Part shown: in pieces, positions 1 to 21,107 of the stretch
Layout: every line of letters starts with the position of its first letter
Position numbering within the stretch: position 1 is the first letter of the stretch
IMG/VR virus record: IMGVR_UViG_3300020213_000124
Span: 1 to 21,741 of that record
Length of the DNA: 21,741 nucleotides
Origin: a virus
Strand: one strand, 5' to 3'
Position numbers and translations under genes: made by a program
Notes under the pieces: model-generated
The model's input: the letters and a program-made list of their open reading frames with translations, nothing else
The model's database searches: none
Told to the model about the DNA's origin: nothing

Positions 1-66
1 GGCCCACGCCGTGGGATATGCGCGGGACTGTGTGCGCCACGAGTGCGCCGGATGCGTCGTTGGCGC

Positions 67-135
67 TCGACCGAGCAATCGACCGACGATCGACCGAAAA
101 TCGACCGATCGATCGATAAATCGAACGATCGACCG
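67..135. repeat. Spaced array of the 7-mer TCGACCG
   Basis: TCGACCG occurs at 67, 79, 90, 101 and 129. The first four copies are 12, 11 and 11 bp apart, about one helical turn. A run of ATCGATCGAT-like bases fills the space before the last copy. Such phased short repeats often bind proteins, and T7 has short-repeat arrays beside its terminal repeats. Confidence 0.85.
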
Positions 136-162
136 CTCGGTCGCCCGGCCCAGGCGGCACAC

Positions 163-187
163 GGCGACCCCCCCATAGGGGGGCGCC
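163..187. repeat. C-tract/G-tract hairpin
   Basis: Six C (169-174) pair with six G (178-183) over ATA. GGCG (163-166) pairs with CGCC (184-187) across a two-base bulge, giving about 10 GC pairs. Such a structure could stall polymerases and lower read coverage. Confidence 0.8.
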
Positions 188-246
188 CCGGCGCGCGAGG
201 GGGGACAACACCCGACGAATAATTCTGGGGGATTGGAGGTGGGCGC

Positions 247-268
247 CCCCTAGGTCCCCCCTAGGTCC
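247..268. repeat. Perfect 11-bp tandem duplication CCCCTAGGTCC
   Basis: Two exact adjacent copies (247-257 and 258-268). Each contains the palindrome CCTAGG. Confidence 0.9.
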
Positions 269-317
269 CCCAACGCCCTGAGCCAGTCGATCCGTAGTTC
301 GCTCTACGGCCCCGCCT

Positions 318-342
318 GCCACCAGGGTAGCGCCCCGGTGGC
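318..342 (-). terminator. Stable hairpin after the last gene, possible terminator
   Basis: On the plus strand G318-G327 pairs with C333-C342 (10 bp with one G-T pair) around a 5-base loop, 30 bases after the 86-aa stop. A smaller perfect hairpin, TAGGA/TCCTA, sits at 353-365, and CCGTAG/CTACGG at 292-309. None has a T-run on the minus side, so termination or RNA processing is only suggested. Confidence 0.4.
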
Positions 343-371
343 CGACGCGCTGTAGGACGCTCCTATGGGCC

Positions 372-632
372 TTAGCGTTCATCCACGGATTTCGGCAGAT
401 CCTCGCCGGCCGTTACCGCGGAGTTGAGGACGTCCCCCGGGTCCTTGATGGCGGACCTGCTGCGCTCTTCCTCGGGCGCCTTGGCGATCTCGGCGGTGGC
501 CCATCCTAGGGCCTCCGCGTGGGCCGAGGGGCGCCCTAGGGGCGCGTCGAATGTCCGCAACGTCCCCCGGGCGGGGTCAATCACGGAGACGTATCGCACT
601 CGGCTGTCAGTCTCGATGGTGAGCGTGGGCAT
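372..632 (-). CDS. Unknown small protein after the large terminase (86 aa)
   Basis: Not recognised. ATG at 632 with AGGA 8 bases upstream, 16 bases after the terminase stop. The first 30 residues look beta-like (MPTLTIETDSRVRYVSVIDP); the rest is an acidic helical region (EALGWATAEIAKAPEEERSR) and a polar end. No membrane span or signal. T7 carries small genes (19.2, 19.3, 19.5) at this place, before the right end of the genome; homology is not claimed. Confidence 0.65.
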   Translation of the reverse strand: MPTLTIETDSRVRYVSVIDPARGTLRTFDAPLGRPSAHAEALGWATAEIAKAPEEERSRSAIKDPGDVLNSAVTAGEDLPKSVDER

Positions 633-648
633 GGTGTGTCCTGTGCAG

Positions 649-2397
649 CTAGCTTCGGTTGTATTCGGATTCGTCGCTGTACTCGATGCGGCGCGCGATG
701 CGGCCGTCCGGCAGGCGGCGGGAGCGCACGGTTCGGGTAGCGCTCGATCGCAGGAAGAGCAGTGTTTCCTCTTGCTCCCGTTCCCAGTCGATCAGCTTCG
801 CGGCTTCCTCGGCCCGCTGCTGGTCGACCATGAGGGCGTGGGCGAAGTAGCTTACCCCGCCGGCTATCGCGTCAATACGGTCGTCGTGGCTCAGTGCCCC
901 ACGGTCGCGCGTAATGTGCGTGAGCTGATACATGGTCTTCTCGTCGCGGGCTACCCGCTCGTCGATGACCAAGCGGTGACCGCCCATTACAGGTTCGAGC
1001 GTGTCGCATATGCGTTGCTCTTTGGAACCCTTGGCCCATTCCGCTTCGACCACCGAGCATCCCCCGGGCCACTCGCGGGCTATCACGGGATTGAATGCGG
1101 CTATCCACACTCCGGGGGCAAAGTTCGGCTCGACGGCTACGGCGTTGACGTTGTTCTTTTTGGCGCACCGCGCGACCATCGCCATGGCTTCCTCAGGGTT
1201 GCCGGCGTGGCCTCCGGTCTCGACGACGAAGAACGTCCCGTTGAGGACCTTGATGATTGCCCAGGCGGTTTCGTCTTTCCCGCGCCCGCCGGGGTCGACG
1301 AAGCATACAGAGCCGGTGAACTCGCGCCACTGGTCGTCTAGGAACAGCGGCCCCATAGCGTAGTCGCCCGTGAAGCCGTAGTTGGGGATCTCGTGCAGTA
1401 TGTTACGGTTGTCCGAGAAGCGCCCCCAAGTGATCGTAGCGGGGCCTTTAGGGCCACTGATGGACATTACGATGAGGTCGCGCGCCCGTAGCGGGTAGCG
1501 CTCTGCGTCGCTTAGCGACGTGTCCAGCATGTATTGGAGCGCGAAGAAGGCGCGGCCCCGGCTTTCGCGGCGGGCCAGTTCGCCCTCGTCGAAGCGCTCT
1601 GGGTCGGTGGCTTTGCCGACAACCTCCGGGTTGGCCTGCATCCTCGCCATGAGCGGGGCGGCCAGGATGTTAACCTGCGTGCCGTTGTCCCGCTTGACGA
1701 TGTAGTTCTTCAGTTTCTCGGCGGACGGGTAGCGGGCCGGCCAGCAGAAGCAGTCGTAGCCTTGCTGTTTGATCTTCGCGTTGTAGATGGACTCTTCCGT
1801 CTGGGGGGTTCCCAGATACAGGATGTCCCCGCCCGGAAGGATGATGGCCTCGAAGTCCTGCGTGATGCGCAGGAGGTTGGAGCGCTGGGCCTCGGTCTTG
1901 GAGTTGTCGACGATCTCTATGTCGTCTGGGAGGATCAGCGTTGCGCGTGATCCGGTGATCTGGCCGGTTATGCCGGCCGCCTTCATGGAGGGGGACTGTT
2001 CGTTTCTGGCGCCGTTAACGTCGAAGCGGTCTACCATGTCGCGCTGGTCGAAGCGCGGCCGGATGAACTCCAACATGGGCATTGTCATCAGGACGCCCTT
2101 AGCCTGCGCCACGAACTCTTTAGCCTTCACTCCGGAGGCGGACGCAACGAGTACCTTCTCGTTGACCGGATCCTTAGCGAGGCGCCAGAGGCCGTAGGCG
2201 GCGGCGGCGGTCGACTTGGCGACGCCCCGGAAGCCCTCTAGGATCTCCCGGCGCCCCGCGGTGCCCGCGCCTGCGAACCCATGTTGTAGAAAGGTCGCGA
2301 GTTCGTATTGCGCGGGCGTCGGGTCGGGAAGTCCTATGTGTTTCCAGAACAAGTACAGGAAATTTCTAAAGTCCCCCGCTACCTCTTCGGGGAGCAT
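649..2397 (-). CDS. terL: Large terminase subunit, T7 gp19-like packaging ATPase/nuclease (582 aa)
   Basis: Pumps DNA into the procapsid and cuts concatemers. ATPase part: Walker A GFRGVAKST (55-63), Walker B LILPDDIE (154-161), and coupling motif YLGTPQT (194-200). Nuclease part: VCFVDPGGRGKDETAW with D368, AVEPNF with E423, and SHDDRIDA with D505/D506. Other T7 gp19 stretches are QYMLDTSLSDAERYPLR and ICDTLEPVMGGHRLVI. Length matches T7 gp19 (586 aa). The start overlaps the preceding stop as TAATG. The similarity to gp19 implies a T7-type packaging strategy with direct terminal repeats, an inference from family. The plus-strand frame opposite its 3' half is a shadow. Confidence 0.96.
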   Translation of the reverse strand: MLPEEVAGDFRNFLYLFWKHIGLPDPTPAQYELATFLQHGFAGAGTAGRREILEGFRGVAKSTAAAAYGLWRLAKDPVNEKVLVASASGVKAKEFVAQAKGVLMTMPMLEFIRPRFDQRDMVDRFDVNGARNEQSPSMKAAGITGQITGSRATLILPDDIEIVDNSKTEAQRSNLLRITQDFEAIILPGGDILYLGTPQTEESIYNAKIKQQGYDCFCWPARYPSAEKLKNYIVKRDNGTQVNILAAPLMARMQANPEVVGKATDPERFDEGELARRESRGRAFFALQYMLDTSLSDAERYPLRARDLIVMSISGPKGPATITWGRFSDNRNILHEIPNYGFTGDYAMGPLFLDDQWREFTGSVCFVDPGGRGKDETAWAIIKVLNGTFFVVETGGHAGNPEEAMAMVARCAKKNNVNAVAVEPNFAPGVWIAAFNPVIAREWPGGCSVVEAEWAKGSKEQRICDTLEPVMGGHRLVIDERVARDEKTMYQLTHITRDRGALSHDDRIDAIAGGVSYFAHALMVDQQRAEEAAKLIDWEREQEETLLFLRSSATRTVRSRRLPDGRIARRIEYSDESEYNRS

Positions 2398-4633: not shown

Positions 4634-5035
4634 TTACTTCTTTCCTTTAATCTGCGCAAACAGGTCTACTAGTTTCCTGTAGCCGAAGCTGGCCGCGATA
4701 GCGACGCCTAGCGACGTCTGGTACCACAAGGGCATTTCAGTTAGGACTAGAAAGCCGGCCATGACAATGTCGGGGCGAATGAATGCCATAATAGCCGGGA
4801 TGGAAAGGATGAGCGTAAACCACTCGTCTTTCCAGGATCCGGCCATCTGGTTGATGCCGGCCACGTCCCAATCGATTTCGGCAGTTTGCGCGCGCTCGGA
4901 GATGCGAACGCGGGCCTCGGCCTCGGCGACGATAATGCGGCTTTCGGCCTCTGCGCGGACTGTCTGGCGCTTCTGCCAGTTTTCTACAGTGCCGCCCACA
5001 AGGCCGATTAGGCCCGAGATGATGCTCCAGATCAT
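4634..5035 (-). CDS. Holin, multi-pass membrane protein (133 aa)
   Basis: Makes the lesion in the inner membrane that starts lysis. A hydrophobic N-terminal segment (2-16) is followed by a long charged helix (20-60, AEAESRIIVAEAEARVRISE). Then comes SWKDEW at 67-72 and two or three hydrophobic segments (about 73-86, 90-99, 106-118). The sequence ends in a Lys-rich tail (KGKK). The order charged helix, then SWKDEW, then two membrane spans with PLWYQTSLGVAIAASFG is widespread in proteins annotated as phage holins of the three-span type. The start ATG overlaps the upstream stop (ATGA). It lies one base before the spike gene. No separate endolysin gene is adjacent; the only muralytic domain in the window is in the 1068-aa virion protein. 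Confidence 0.8.
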   Translation of the reverse strand: MIWSIISGLIGLVGGTVENWQKRQTVRAEAESRIIVAEAEARVRISERAQTAEIDWDVAGINQMAGSWKDEWFTLILSIPAIMAFIRPDIVMAGFLVLTEMPLWYQTSLGVAIAASFGYRKLVDLFAQIKGKK

Positions 5036-5259
5036 CGGGGAAGAACCCCCATGAGAGCGATCGCGGCGGTTAGAAGGCTTCCCAGAGCGGCGGCGCCGCC
5101 GGCAGTGACATACTGGCGGCGCTCTATCTTGAGCGTCCGCGCCTCCAAGAGGTCGTGGCCCTCGCCCTGCTTCTTGAGCAGAGTAAGGGCCAAGTCAACT
5201 TTGCCTTCCAGCCTCCCGAACGCCCGTTCGAACGTGGCGGTAGACGGGAGGGCGTTCAC
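5032..5259 (-). CDS. Small coiled-coil membrane protein of the lysis cluster (75 aa)
   Basis: Starts at a GTG (5259) that overlaps the stop of the 44-aa lipoprotein, with GGGAG almost adjacent. No ATG occurs until residue 70. Residues 10-48 form a charged helix, likely a coiled coil (ERAFGRLEGKVDLALTLLKK). Residues 51-73 form one hydrophobic segment, followed by a short end, PR. A charged coil followed by a C-terminal membrane anchor is the plan of XhlA-like lysis accessory proteins. An i-spanin (Rz) normally has its membrane segment at the N-terminus, so that call is weaker. It ends in an ATGA overlap with the holin, which supports a shared lysis role. No family was recognised by motif. Confidence 0.6.
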   Translation of the reverse strand: MNALPSTATFERAFGRLEGKVDLALTLLKKQGEGHDLLEARTLKIERRQYVTAGGAAALGSLLTAAIALMGVLPR

Positions 5260-5390
5260 TCTCCCGAACTTACGGGAGAGCCGCCGGAATCGTTGCTACC
5301 GCCCACGTCCAGGCGGGGATATTCGTAGGTGCATGCGGCCACCGCGAGGGTGAGCGCGAGGGCGGCGAGGATGGAATAAATACGCTTCAT
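5256..5390 (-). CDS. 44-aa lipoprotein, candidate outer-membrane spanin subunit or exclusion lipoprotein
   Basis: A very short gene read directly from the bases. ATG at 5390 with AGGAG 8 bases upstream, starting 14 bases after the oxygenase stop. The protein begins MKRIYSILAALALTLAVAAC, a complete lipoprotein signal: basic start, hydrophobic core and lipobox V17-A18-A19-C20. The residue after Cys is Thr, not Asp, which predicts outer-membrane sorting. The mature part is only 25 residues, rich in Gly/Ser and ending SSGE. Its TGA overlaps the GTG start of the next gene (GTGA). Next to a holin, a Rz1-like spanin is the obvious idea, but the mature part is short and not Pro-rich. A superinfection-exclusion lipoprotein is an alternative. 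Confidence 0.75.
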   Translation of the reverse strand: MKRIYSILAALALTLAVAACTYEYPRLDVGGSNDSGGSPVSSGE

Positions 5391-5404
5391 AGCTTGTGCT
5401 CCTA

Positions 5405-5968
5405 TTATTTCCACCGCGGCCCAATGCCGAAGGTGGCTAGTGTGTGGCGAACGCCACGAGTCACCGGAGTAACCCGGTGGATATGGAACGACGGGAATAC
5501 CGTCAACAGCCCTAGGCGCCTCGGGACACGGGCGGTCTTGTCCTCGTCCCGTATCTCCAGCGTCCCCCCGTCGTAGTCGTGCGGGTCGCTTAGCTGGACG
5601 ATGGCAGTTAGCTTACGGTAGGGTACGCGTGTGTGGAAAAAGTCGTCGTCGGGGTGCCATGCAAAGTCTTCGTGCAGGTCGCCAACGTAGCGGATTACGT
5701 CGGCGTACAGGCCCCCGGTAATGTCGAAGTTGAACACCGACAGGTTGGCCTCGTGGATCTTCGCGTGAACTTGGAGTACGGCCGGGTACAAGGCGTCGCC
5801 CTCGGCTATACGCACGGTGGAGTTATTGCGAATGCGCTTGTCGACGGTGTATTGCCCGTTGATCGTCATGCCGGCGGGCTTGAACTCCCGCCGGCTAAGC
5901 TCGTCCAAGAGGAAGGCGCACTGTGGGGCGGAGAAGAAATCTTCGGTTGTCTGATAGCGCATGGTCAT
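5405..5968 (-). CDS. 2-oxoglutarate/Fe(II)-dependent oxygenase, PKHD/prolyl-hydroxylase type (187 aa)
   Basis: The family uses 2-oxoglutarate and oxygen to hydroxylate a substrate. The iron-binding set is visible: H105 and D107 in AWHPDD, then H164 in the stretch FHIHRVTPVT, with R174 (RGVR) as the likely 2-oxoglutarate-binding Arg. VQLSDPHDYDGGTLEI and LTVFPSF before the second His are typical of PKHD-type hydroxylases. About 190 aa fits a single catalytic domain; there is no extra domain or signal peptide. The start is the ATG at 5968, 2 bases after the fibre 2 stop, with no clear ribosome site, so it may depend on coupling; a second ATG is two codons later. It sits between fibres and lysis genes. 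Substrate is unknown: a virion protein, a host protein or a surface polymer are all possible. Confidence 0.88.
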   Translation of the reverse strand: MTMRYQTTEDFFSAPQCAFLLDELSRREFKPAGMTINGQYTVDKRIRNNSTVRIAEGDALYPAVLQVHAKIHEANLSVFNFDITGGLYADVIRYVGDLHEDFAWHPDDDFFHTRVPYRKLTAIVQLSDPHDYDGGTLEIRDEDKTARVPRRLGLLTVFPSFHIHRVTPVTRGVRHTLATFGIGPRWK

Positions 5969-12467: not shown

Positions 12468-12471
12468 TATG

Positions 12472-15400
12472 TTAGCCGCGAACCCCGAGGGACGCGGACG
12501 GCGTCGCCCGGTTGGGACCGCGCGGCGTGTGGCCATCGAGGCCCCGGAACTGCTCAGCCTCTTCAACACGCCGGCGGCGCCATTGGTCTTCGGTGAGATC
12601 CTTGGCTCGCTTGGACATTGTGCCGATTAGGTCGGCGGCGGCGGAGTAGTCCTTAGCCTTGATCGCGGTAACGAGTTCCGTGCTTACGAGGCCCGGACCG
12701 TGGTACGCGAGAGATACCAGCGCGAGACGCTGGTTTGTGGAAAGGGCGTCAATCGTGCCCTTTCCTACGCGCTTCTCTAGGAAGTCTTCCACCTGATTGA
12801 GCGTGTACTCTGCCAGTTTGATTCCCTGTTCCTTCGTGAGCGGCTTGCCGCCCGCCTTGACCTTGGCGAATGCGTCCTGGTCTAGGCCGAGCGCCTTGGC
12901 GAAGACTTCCGGGGCGTCCTTACGCTCCATGTTGAAGCCGTAGCCCACGGTTACGCTTCCAGTCACGGCGCCCGCGCCGGCGGGCTTCCCGCTGGCGTCG
13001 TCATAGGCATACTCGCGGTAGCCCTCGCGCTTGTGGATGACGTCAAGGCGCTGGTTCCTGTAGGTTTCGCTACCAGCCACGCCGCTAAACGGGGTGAAGC
13101 GCACGGACTGTCGGGCGTCCGTCATTAGCTTATCCAGGAACGCGCGGGCGTCCTCTACGGAGTTGATGCGCGGCGGTCCGACGCGGGATAGCCAGTCCGC
13201 CGACAATAGGCCGTTGTCTACGCCCTTCTCCGCGATGCTCTGGAGCATGCGGTCCATGTGGTAACCCACGCTGGTCTTGCGGCGCTCGTCGGCGTTGCCA
13301 ATAATAGACCTGTCCCCGGGCTTGACGCCCGCCAGTCCCGTCGCCCGGGAGCGGGCCTGAAACTCCGACAGTACGCCGCCATTAAGCTCGGCGGGGGGAG
13401 CGGCGGCGTCCTGCTTGGCCCGCGCGTCCAGCACGGCGCCCTTCAGAGTGTCGGCGTTGCTCTGCTCGGTGCGAAGCGCCTTCTCTGATGCGGTTTCTCC
13501 AACGTACATAAGCCCCACCTCGGGGCGCAGTACCGTGAAGAACTCGGCGTTGTCGTCCACGCGCCTCTCGGGCACCACGCGGCCCGTGGGGACGAGGGCG
13601 AACCCCGTGCCCCGGAGCTGCTCCGGAACGTGGCCGTAAGATGGAATGTCTACCGGGACTTCCATGTTGCCAATCCGCTGGCCGGCCAGGAATACCACGC
13701 TTCGGCGGATACCGTCGTCGCTGGTGGCAAACGCATCATAGCCACGGCCGTCGGCGCGCGGCCTCAGGCCGGTAAGCTTGGCGCCCTGGGATCCGAACGC
13801 GGTGGAGAGCTTGCCGAACTCCGCCGCCGCGGCGCTTATATCGTTTCCATCCAGGCCCCTTGAGGGGACTTTATGACCGTCTACCTCGATATGTTGGGGC
13901 ATTACGCGCTTGACCCAAATCAACGTCCCGTTTTCAAAGGCCGGCTGGATGTCCGCGCGCACGCTGCGAGCGGCCCATTCAGTGATGGCCTGTTGATCGG
14001 TCCCGCGTCCCAGCTGGCCGAACAGTGCGACGCCCACCTTTAGGCGGTCGCGGATCATCTGCTCGACTTCCCCGGTTGCGCCGCTTCGGCCGATCCAGAG
14101 ATCCATGCTCTTGTCGAGCTTCTCCAGGTGCGAGCGAACCCCGGCGTTCCAGACTTCTACCGTGGCGGGCTTACCGTCTCCCAGCTGGAGCTTTTCCAGA
14201 TCCGTGGGGCTGTTGAAGGTCACGGCGGCCGCACGCGCGGCGGCGTCGGCGGGAGACGCGCCCGACTTCACTTCGGCGTCCATGACCATGTAGCGCACTA
14301 GGCCGGAGTTGCCCGCCAGCTTGGTGAACATTTCCGGGTTGTCCCCAAAGCTGGCCTGGAGCACGCGGAGCTTCCCGTATGCCGCGACCACGCGGGCCGG
14401 GTCGGACGATAGCATCTCTGCTTCCGTCTGCTGCGCGAACTCGGCGGGCAACGAGTTGTTGGCCGCGAGTACGCCGCCGACACGCGCCCACGCCTCTTCA
14501 GGCGTGCGGCCACCGGACACTTCCCGCTGGTATATCGACGAGATAAGCTGTGGGCCAACCTCGTTCATTTCCTTGCTTGTCAGCGGATTCACGCCGGGTT
14601 GGCGCTCCGAGAAAGCGAGTGCGCGCTCTACAATAGACGCCTTAGTGGCGTCTTTCTGGAGGGCCACGATCGCGCCAACCGTGAGATCGCGCCACGGGTT
14701 GGACTCGCCGAACCGGGCGCGATGGGCCACTAGAGTATTAAGGGCGTCGACGGGCTTCATCATGCCCGTCTTGAAGCCGGTTTCGACTGTGTTCAAATCG
14801 TTCAACGCCGCCATAGACCGGACGGAGTTGCTCCGCCCCATACGCTCCCGCTCGACGTTGGCGATTTCCGCCGGGTACGTTTCGCGCAGCGAGCGGCCGT
14901 CTTCCTGCTTCATGTCGAAGAACTGCGACACGAATTCGTTGTCGCTCGCCGATGCCTGCCGGAGGACGGCCGTTAGGACGGCAGCGTGTGCCTGATCCTT
15001 CTTCCCCACGGGGAGCACGTCGGCAAGTGCCTGCACGCGCCCCTTGAACCATTCCGGTGTGGGCATGTTGCCGCTGGACAGGTCAGCCGCAATCGAGCTT
15101 GTGACGTTCTGCATGGCCGCGCCCACGGCGTCTTCGCGCGCGCGAGACTCCCATTTGAAGATCGCGCCGGCCGCGAAGTCGGCGGCGTGCTTGCGGTAGG
15201 CCAATTCGACACGCGGCTCGGCCCCCTTGATTTGGCCGTTAATGAACTGCTCAGCAGCAGCGCGGGGGTCGTCGCTCGGCCCGAGCTTGTCTATCGCCCC
15301 CTGGAGGGTGGAAGCGTCCTTCTGCCACATGGAGCCGCCCAAGGCGCCGTGGTACGCGTCTGCGTATGAGTTACGCTGAACCTTCGTGGGGTCGGGAGCT

Positions 15401-20780: not shown

Positions 20781-20809
20781 GAAAATAGGCCTTCTTGTTG
20801 AGGTTAGGG

Positions 20810-20841
20810 GGGTGTCTACTTTGACGCGCCGGTTATCTACT
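20810..20841 (-). promoter_or_regulatory. Two similar 11-mers spaced 21 bp, possible promoter or operator element
   Basis: On the minus strand AGTAGATAACC (20831-20841) and AGTAGACACCC (20810-20820) match at 9 of 11 positions. They start 21 bp apart, about two helical turns. They sit 30-60 bases before the start of the 160-aa head gene. Position suggests a phage promoter or protein-binding site, but no other copy was recognised in the window, so the call is tentative. Confidence 0.3.
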
Positions 20842-21056
20842 AAGGTTTAGACCCCGTGGGGTCCGCCGTTCGTGCCGGTCAGTCTCGGGTGGGGTTAAGC
20901 GCGCTCTCGGCGGGTTTCCAGCCTGTCGAACGCTCGCGGCCCCTGCCGCTGCTGGTAGGAAACCAGCGAAACTTCGCGCGCTCGACTACCGGGGCTTATG
21001 GCCCGCGGACGTAGGAGCGCGCTCGCGTTCTGCCTAGGAGGTTGGGCAGCGTGCGA

Positions 21057-21100
21057 AAACGAAGAAAGGCCCCTAACCGGCGCGTGGCCGAGAAAGGGGC
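21057..21100 (-). terminator. Putative intrinsic terminator after the scaffold gene
   Basis: Read on the minus strand just after the scaffold stop, GCCCC pairs with GGGGC. Between them an inner CGG/CCG stem closes a CCACGCG loop. A pyrimidine-rich run, CTTTCTTCGTTTT, follows at once. The stem has an internal loop and the T-run is interrupted, so it is weaker than the terminator after the capsid gene. It would separate scaffold messages from capsid messages, or leak. Confidence 0.45.
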
Positions 21101-21107
21101 GGGGTGC

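Follow-up and report, generated by a model that had tools for sequence, protein, structure and literature searches.

A noncoding, repeat- and hairpin-rich region downstream of the terminase gene of an uncultured T7-like phage, probably a part of its concatemer junction

Late genes and the region at their 3' end

The window, i.e. the whole stretch of DNA analysed here, is one entire linear viral contig of 21,741 b. Its recognisable genes all lie on the minus strand and encode the capsid, tail tubes, internal virion proteins and tail fibres as well as a GDSL hydrolase, a 2OG oxygenase and the large terminase (TerL). Given this orientation of the late block, the region 1–371, which is cut by the end of the contig, is also the 3' end of the block (Table 1). 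TerL belongs to PHROG 38 (E 7e-99 in the PHROG scan) and matches 2541 phage records, with T7 at 38.6% identity. The ORFs of 93, 99 and 105 aa that precede TerL, in the small-terminase position, have no PHROG matches, and neither does the 86-aa ORF, which occupies the place of gene 19.5 in T7. The preliminary description, in which a T7-type large terminase was next door to the region, is accurate as to the type of the enzyme but not as to adjacency, because the 86-aa ORF intervenes; the claim that the rest of the window is packed with genes holds broadly, except for a gap of ~330 b without a listed minus-strand ORF (20781–21107). The oxygenase gene (2OG-Fe(II) type, PHROG 61; 5405–5968, minus strand) is found among the structural genes, and an 18-b tandem repeat of 3.7 copies lies inside an ORF at the other contig end (21655–21720).

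Table 1. Features at the terminase-proximal end of the window.
Feature	Position	Strand	Remark
Noncoding repeat- and hairpin-rich region; probable right-end/concatemer-junction region	1–371		~430 b more in L002
Contig end	1–9		positions 1, 3, 5, 6 and 9 differ from L002 (ungapped comparison)
Array A, iteron-like TCGATCGG/TCGACCGA repeats	67–143		self-complementary, long imperfect hairpin
Perfect stem	109–132
Hairpin GGTCGCC/GGCGACC	139–169	-	from fold
Hairpin CCCCCC/GGGGGG, perfect stem	168–183		loop of 4
Tandem 11-mer	246–271		period 11, 2.4 copies, 100% match (TRF)
Perfect stem	249–265
Hairpin CCGTAG/CTACGG, perfect stem	292–309		no T-run after stem
Hairpin GCCACCGGGG/CCCTGGTGGC (minus-strand letters)	318–342		from fold
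86-aa ORF between TerL and the noncoding region	372–632	-	read towards 1–371
T7-type terminase large subunit (DNA maturase B)	649–2397	-	read towards 1–371

A search of viral contigs with the terminase as the query led to two near-identical contigs; L002, which carries another sample number, is 99.4% identical to the window over 12,391 b and extends past the window end. One minus-strand ORF crosses the region (127 aa in the window, 160 aa in L002). The 10 differences from L002 within the 127-aa ORF are distributed over codon positions 1, 2 and 3 as 1/6/3, compared with 16/12/34 in real genes. Because the 127-aa ORF has no PHROG match and a codon-position pattern unlike that of real genes, it is rejected as a gene and is very probably untranslated, in agreement with the earlier view that these 371 b contain no gene.

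Array A consists of units built on TCGATCG/TCGACCG, with periods of 11, 20 and 23, and its best TRF score, 77, is attained in none of 500 dinucleotide shuffles of the region, with a score of 50 in 3 of the 500. The second repeat is a perfect tandem with two CCTAGG palindromes 11 b apart. Globally, CCTAGG was rejected as an enriched word (8 copies in the window vs 7.25 expected), so that the clustering alone is notable. In exact pattern scans of viral contigs for the 11-mer pair and array A, the contig of L002 is the sole match.

The number of perfect stems of at least six pairs, four, is unexceptional (mean of 1.7 expected; equalled in 19 of 200 shuffles), and two further hairpins come from folds. 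The total folding of the region, in contrast, is exceptional, with z of -4.3 for RNA and -5.2 for DNA, the lowest fold z among the 59 window segments of 371 b. The hairpin of array A is the largest, at 87 nt and z -4.3; since the array unit is self-complementary, the array and this hairpin are largely one feature, and the hairpins follow in part from the array. The hairpins, the perfect tandem 11-mer and the iteron-like array of the preliminary description are thus all present. No match to Rfam was found for the region and no tRNA that could be an integration site. The segments that rank second and third in strength of folding within the window are in 4676–5417, around ORFs of 133 and 75 aa and a 145-b gap (5260–5404).

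Continuation of the noncoding DNA past the window end

In L002, a T7-type large terminase is followed by the 86-aa ORF, ~800 noncoding b and small genes, all in the same direction. The noncoding stretch runs from the stop of the 86-aa ORF (12026) to the first small gene (12826), which adds ~430 b past the window end, and includes another array, of about five copies of a 20-mer (12471–12570). The nearest other relative, L119 (61% in TerL), also has TerL, noncoding DNA and small genes in the same direction. In both contigs, the late genes are joined via noncoding DNA to same-direction genes that, from their position, would belong to the early side. The consensus scan yields one promoter-like and five terminator-like sites in L002, near chance numbers. 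No near DNA relatives of the region were found in the phage collection, where the L002 noncoding stretch and early side have no distant DNA match either, and none were found in the genome contigs. No duplicated end is visible in the window or in L002, both of which are fragments. Early and middle genes, among which the single-subunit RNA polymerase encoded by Autographiviridae would be expected, fall beyond these contigs.

The differences between the window and L002 are unevenly distributed. There are none in 199–371 but 10 in 7–198, where the remainder predicts 1.0 (P about 1e-7). Within this segment, positions 67–142 of array A contain no difference, and both flanks differ; in the hairpin 139–169, the pair G165–C143 of the window is A–T in L002, a single compensatory change that keeps the stem paired. 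In a comparison of two sequences, this pattern suggests constraint on array A and one hairpin within an otherwise fast-changing segment, to which poor quality of the contig end could add false differences. Both the excess of differences in 7–198 and the disagreement in positions 1–9 would be accounted for if the region or its end were an artefact of the contig end, i.e. low-coverage or chimeric sequence. This is hardly credible, given that both the arrays and the hairpins recur in a contig with another sample number, which extends beyond them, and that the difference at 165 has a counterpart at 143, with which it pairs. Elsewhere in the window, 15 of the 72 differences, in all codon positions, fall in the gene of the 451-aa GDSL-type hydrolase (Pfam PF13472; 3304–4659, minus strand), in the block between the tail fibres and the terminase, which suggests a fast-changing protein.

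Genome ends and repeat arrays in T7-like phages

End sequences were fetched for 14 reference records that have a T7-type terminase, and 13 of the records were compared at both ends (P-SCSP1p was left out). Exact direct terminal repeats of 127–259 b are present in 7 of the 13 (LUZ100, 244 b; T7, 160; BB8, 127; phiPst2111, 218; PP47, 151; Mak, 127; S2B, 259) and begin 169–1236 b after the TerL stop. The deposited sequences of the other six have no exact end repeat, so that the position rule rests on seven records; one of the six, CR44b, has an annotated end repeat. The repeats of LUZ100 and S2B are also annotated in the records, and the LUZ100 paper (PMC10134795) states repeats of 244 b. The frequent loss of terminal repeats in assembly, stated in the przondovirus paper (PMC10438801), fits the records without end repeats. 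When the two ends are joined, arrays with a TRF score of at least 40 appear in 5 of the 7 records with verified ends (none in BB8 and phiPst2111); the terminase controls contain no arrays at this score.

The T7 genome (NC_001604) resembles L002 in the succession of TerL, a small ORF (gene 19.5) and noncoding DNA with short direct repeats. Its 160-b terminal repeat is flanked on both sides by repeat arrays, called SRL and SRR, and is followed by the early promoters and early region; short repeats at the ends of T7 and T3 have long been known. The T7 repeat units CCTAAAG, however, are missing from the candidate junction of L002, and so is the pause word ATCTGTT that follows the T7 terminal repeat (position 161), which is not taken here as family-defining. 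Furthermore, the terminal repeat of T7 is mapped, whereas the candidate junction in the window and L002 is proposed from sequence features and gene order. The T7 arrangement also bears on the possibility that array A is a replication origin with initiator-binding iterons instead of a packaging or end-processing site. The iteron-like, self-complementary repeats and the identity of array A in the two variants would suit an origin, but in T7 the arrays in this position lie on either side of the terminal repeat, the primary origin of T7 is located inside the genome, and no initiator protein gene was recognised among the scanned window proteins, all of which makes an origin distinctly improbable.

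Two phages with GC-rich terminal repeats also offer parallels to the window phage. In LUZ100 (OP329100), the right terminal repeat (68% GC) starts 395 b after TerL; it shares no DNA with the noncoding stretch of L002, which has no match in the phage collection. Terminators are annotated in and before this repeat and, in the window, the hairpins come after the last late gene, as would be the case if 1–371 were only a late-transcript terminator and an intergenic spacer, with the physical ends elsewhere. However, the consensus scan detects no terminator-like sites (and no sigma-70 promoters) on either strand of 1–371, and a terminator would leave the tandem arrays unexplained at a place that, in the relatives, is occupied by terminal repeats; this explanation is therefore unlikely. 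Caulobacter phage S2B (MN857473) has its repeat (69% GC) 169 b after TerL and tandem units with CCTAGG, like the 11-mer of the window, but differs in array unit and length, and its repeat boundary is known.

Beyond the reference records, tandem arrays (TRF score of at least 45) were counted in viral-contig loci. In the first set of 65 loci with 1 kb after TerL, L002 included, 31 have an array in that kilobase and 34 have none. The 53 arrays amount to 0.82/kb, compared with 0.15/kb in the rest of the loci, and shuffled kilobases yield 0–3 arrays in each of ten rounds. Unit lengths of 10–13 b account for 28 of these 53 arrays vs 29 of the 107 elsewhere, and multiples of three for 18 of 53 vs 80 of 107, as expected if the other arrays are mostly coding repeats. 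In the second set (31 loci from a narrower profile, with at least three contigs common to the first set), 12 loci have an array after TerL and 19 have none (0.65/kb vs 0.052/kb), with multiples of three in 10 of the 20 near arrays and 9 of the 10 far ones. In the closer clade, TRF detects no array at score 45 within 1.5 kb after the TerL of L014, L015 or L016; another method detects a 22-b repeat in this interval of L015. No description of such a family-wide concentration of arrays was found in searches of open-licence papers. Contig ends show a weak excess on the downstream side of TerL (7 of 40 within 1.5 kb vs 2 of 40 upstream), and their clustering was rejected, as too weak, as a sign of physical ends.

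The DNA after TerL also stands out in folding and word content. Fold z below -3 is found in the first 300 b in 16 of 61 loci, compared with 2–4 of 61 for each TerL segment; in L002, the first 300 b are not unusual (z -0.8), and z is -4.1 in 300–600 b. At least four copies of CTNNAGG are present in 17 of 61 loci (shuffle mean 1.4; 6 in TerL), and of CTNTAGG in 7 of 61 (shuffle mean 0.0; 0 in TerL); word counting also flags the palindromes CTATAG and CCTNNAGG. The CCTAGG pair of the window and the CCTGAGG pair of L002 are similar to these words but are not the identical word. The candidate junction of L002 contains 5 CCT-n-AGG against 0.6, a number reached in 0 of 300 shuffles.

A probable concatemer junction

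With a probability of about 0.8, the region 1–371 belongs to the concatemer junction of a T7-like phage, of which it forms the part nearest the terminase gene, and the right copy of a short direct terminal repeat lies within it or next to it. Judging from the sequence, the order of TerL, the 86-aa ORF, noncoding DNA and small genes is that of a T7-type (Autographiviridae) concatemer junction, which would hold the terminal repeat and be the place of cutting and docking. The suggestion of a direct terminal repeat boundary or concatemer-processing site is borne out as to the kind of element, by the T7-type TerL upstream, the continuity in L002 and the position of the relatives' repeats, but not as to its placement within 1–371: with ~430 b more of noncoding DNA and another array past the window end, the cut sites may fall outside. 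By analogy with T7, the terminal repeat may be situated at about 12335–12470 of L002, in the interval that separates array A from the 20-mer array. The junction is an element of a known kind, and its sequence is new.

In the proposed mechanism, replication would produce concatemers of genomes joined head to tail. The junction would then connect the late genes, of which TerL and the 86-aa ORF are the last, with those of the early side. Recognition and cutting of the junction would fall to the terminase complex, possibly with the help of a phage RNA polymerase that pauses there, for which T7 is the reported precedent, and synthesis would duplicate the terminal repeat. Recognition and docking would take place at the arrays and palindromes, and the hairpins would be a by-product of the palindromic sites or an aid in copying the terminal repeat; hairpin ends occur in T7 processing. 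Direct terminal repeat ends arise by synthesis from staggered nicks, according to PMC5557969, a scheme that, by analogy, would apply to the window phage too. The T7 pause word is given in PMC11617373, and its absence from L002 implies that any polymerase pause there has a different sequence.

The arrays invite a tentative and rather doubtful generalisation, namely, that at T7-like ends, the letters of the arrays turn over wholly while the unit length stays near the helical turn (10–13 b), and the units, often with a short palindrome of the CCT-n-AGG or CTATAG kind, are phased docking sites that co-evolve with the small terminase or a partner. The CCTAGG 11-mers and the TCGATCGG array of the window would be one such pair. 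This stays a hypothesis for three reasons: the CCT-n-AGG reading was formed after the arrays were seen, the T7-type promoter core overlaps with CTATAG, and the TRF cut-offs favour units of ~10 b or more. If the docking reading is true, recognition would depend on spacing and symmetry more than on a fixed sequence. To our knowledge, the features of the junction to which the T7 packaging machinery responds are still poorly defined, and a set of diverged junctions makes T7-type junction recognition amenable to comparison. For this uncultured T7-like phage, the sequence by itself allows the genome end to be narrowed down to ~800 b, and the family-wide clustering of tandem arrays downstream of TerL provides a simple indicator of terminal regions in contigs from metagenomes.

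On the other side of the noncoding stretch, L002 carries two tandem paralogous proteins of 224 aa (13578–14249 and 14350–15021). The first has no Pfam match; by eye, the paralogues resemble the N-terminal motif of sliding clamps (ATDG.TLLA). Four early-side genes of L002 have a common leader of 78–94 b, ~94% alike, directly before the start codon (13120–13211, 13488–13580, 14257–14350 and 15029–15122, all past the window end). In the hairpin of this leader, an A–T pair turns into C–G between copies, and the element has the appearance of an RNA leader or processing site present in repeated form.
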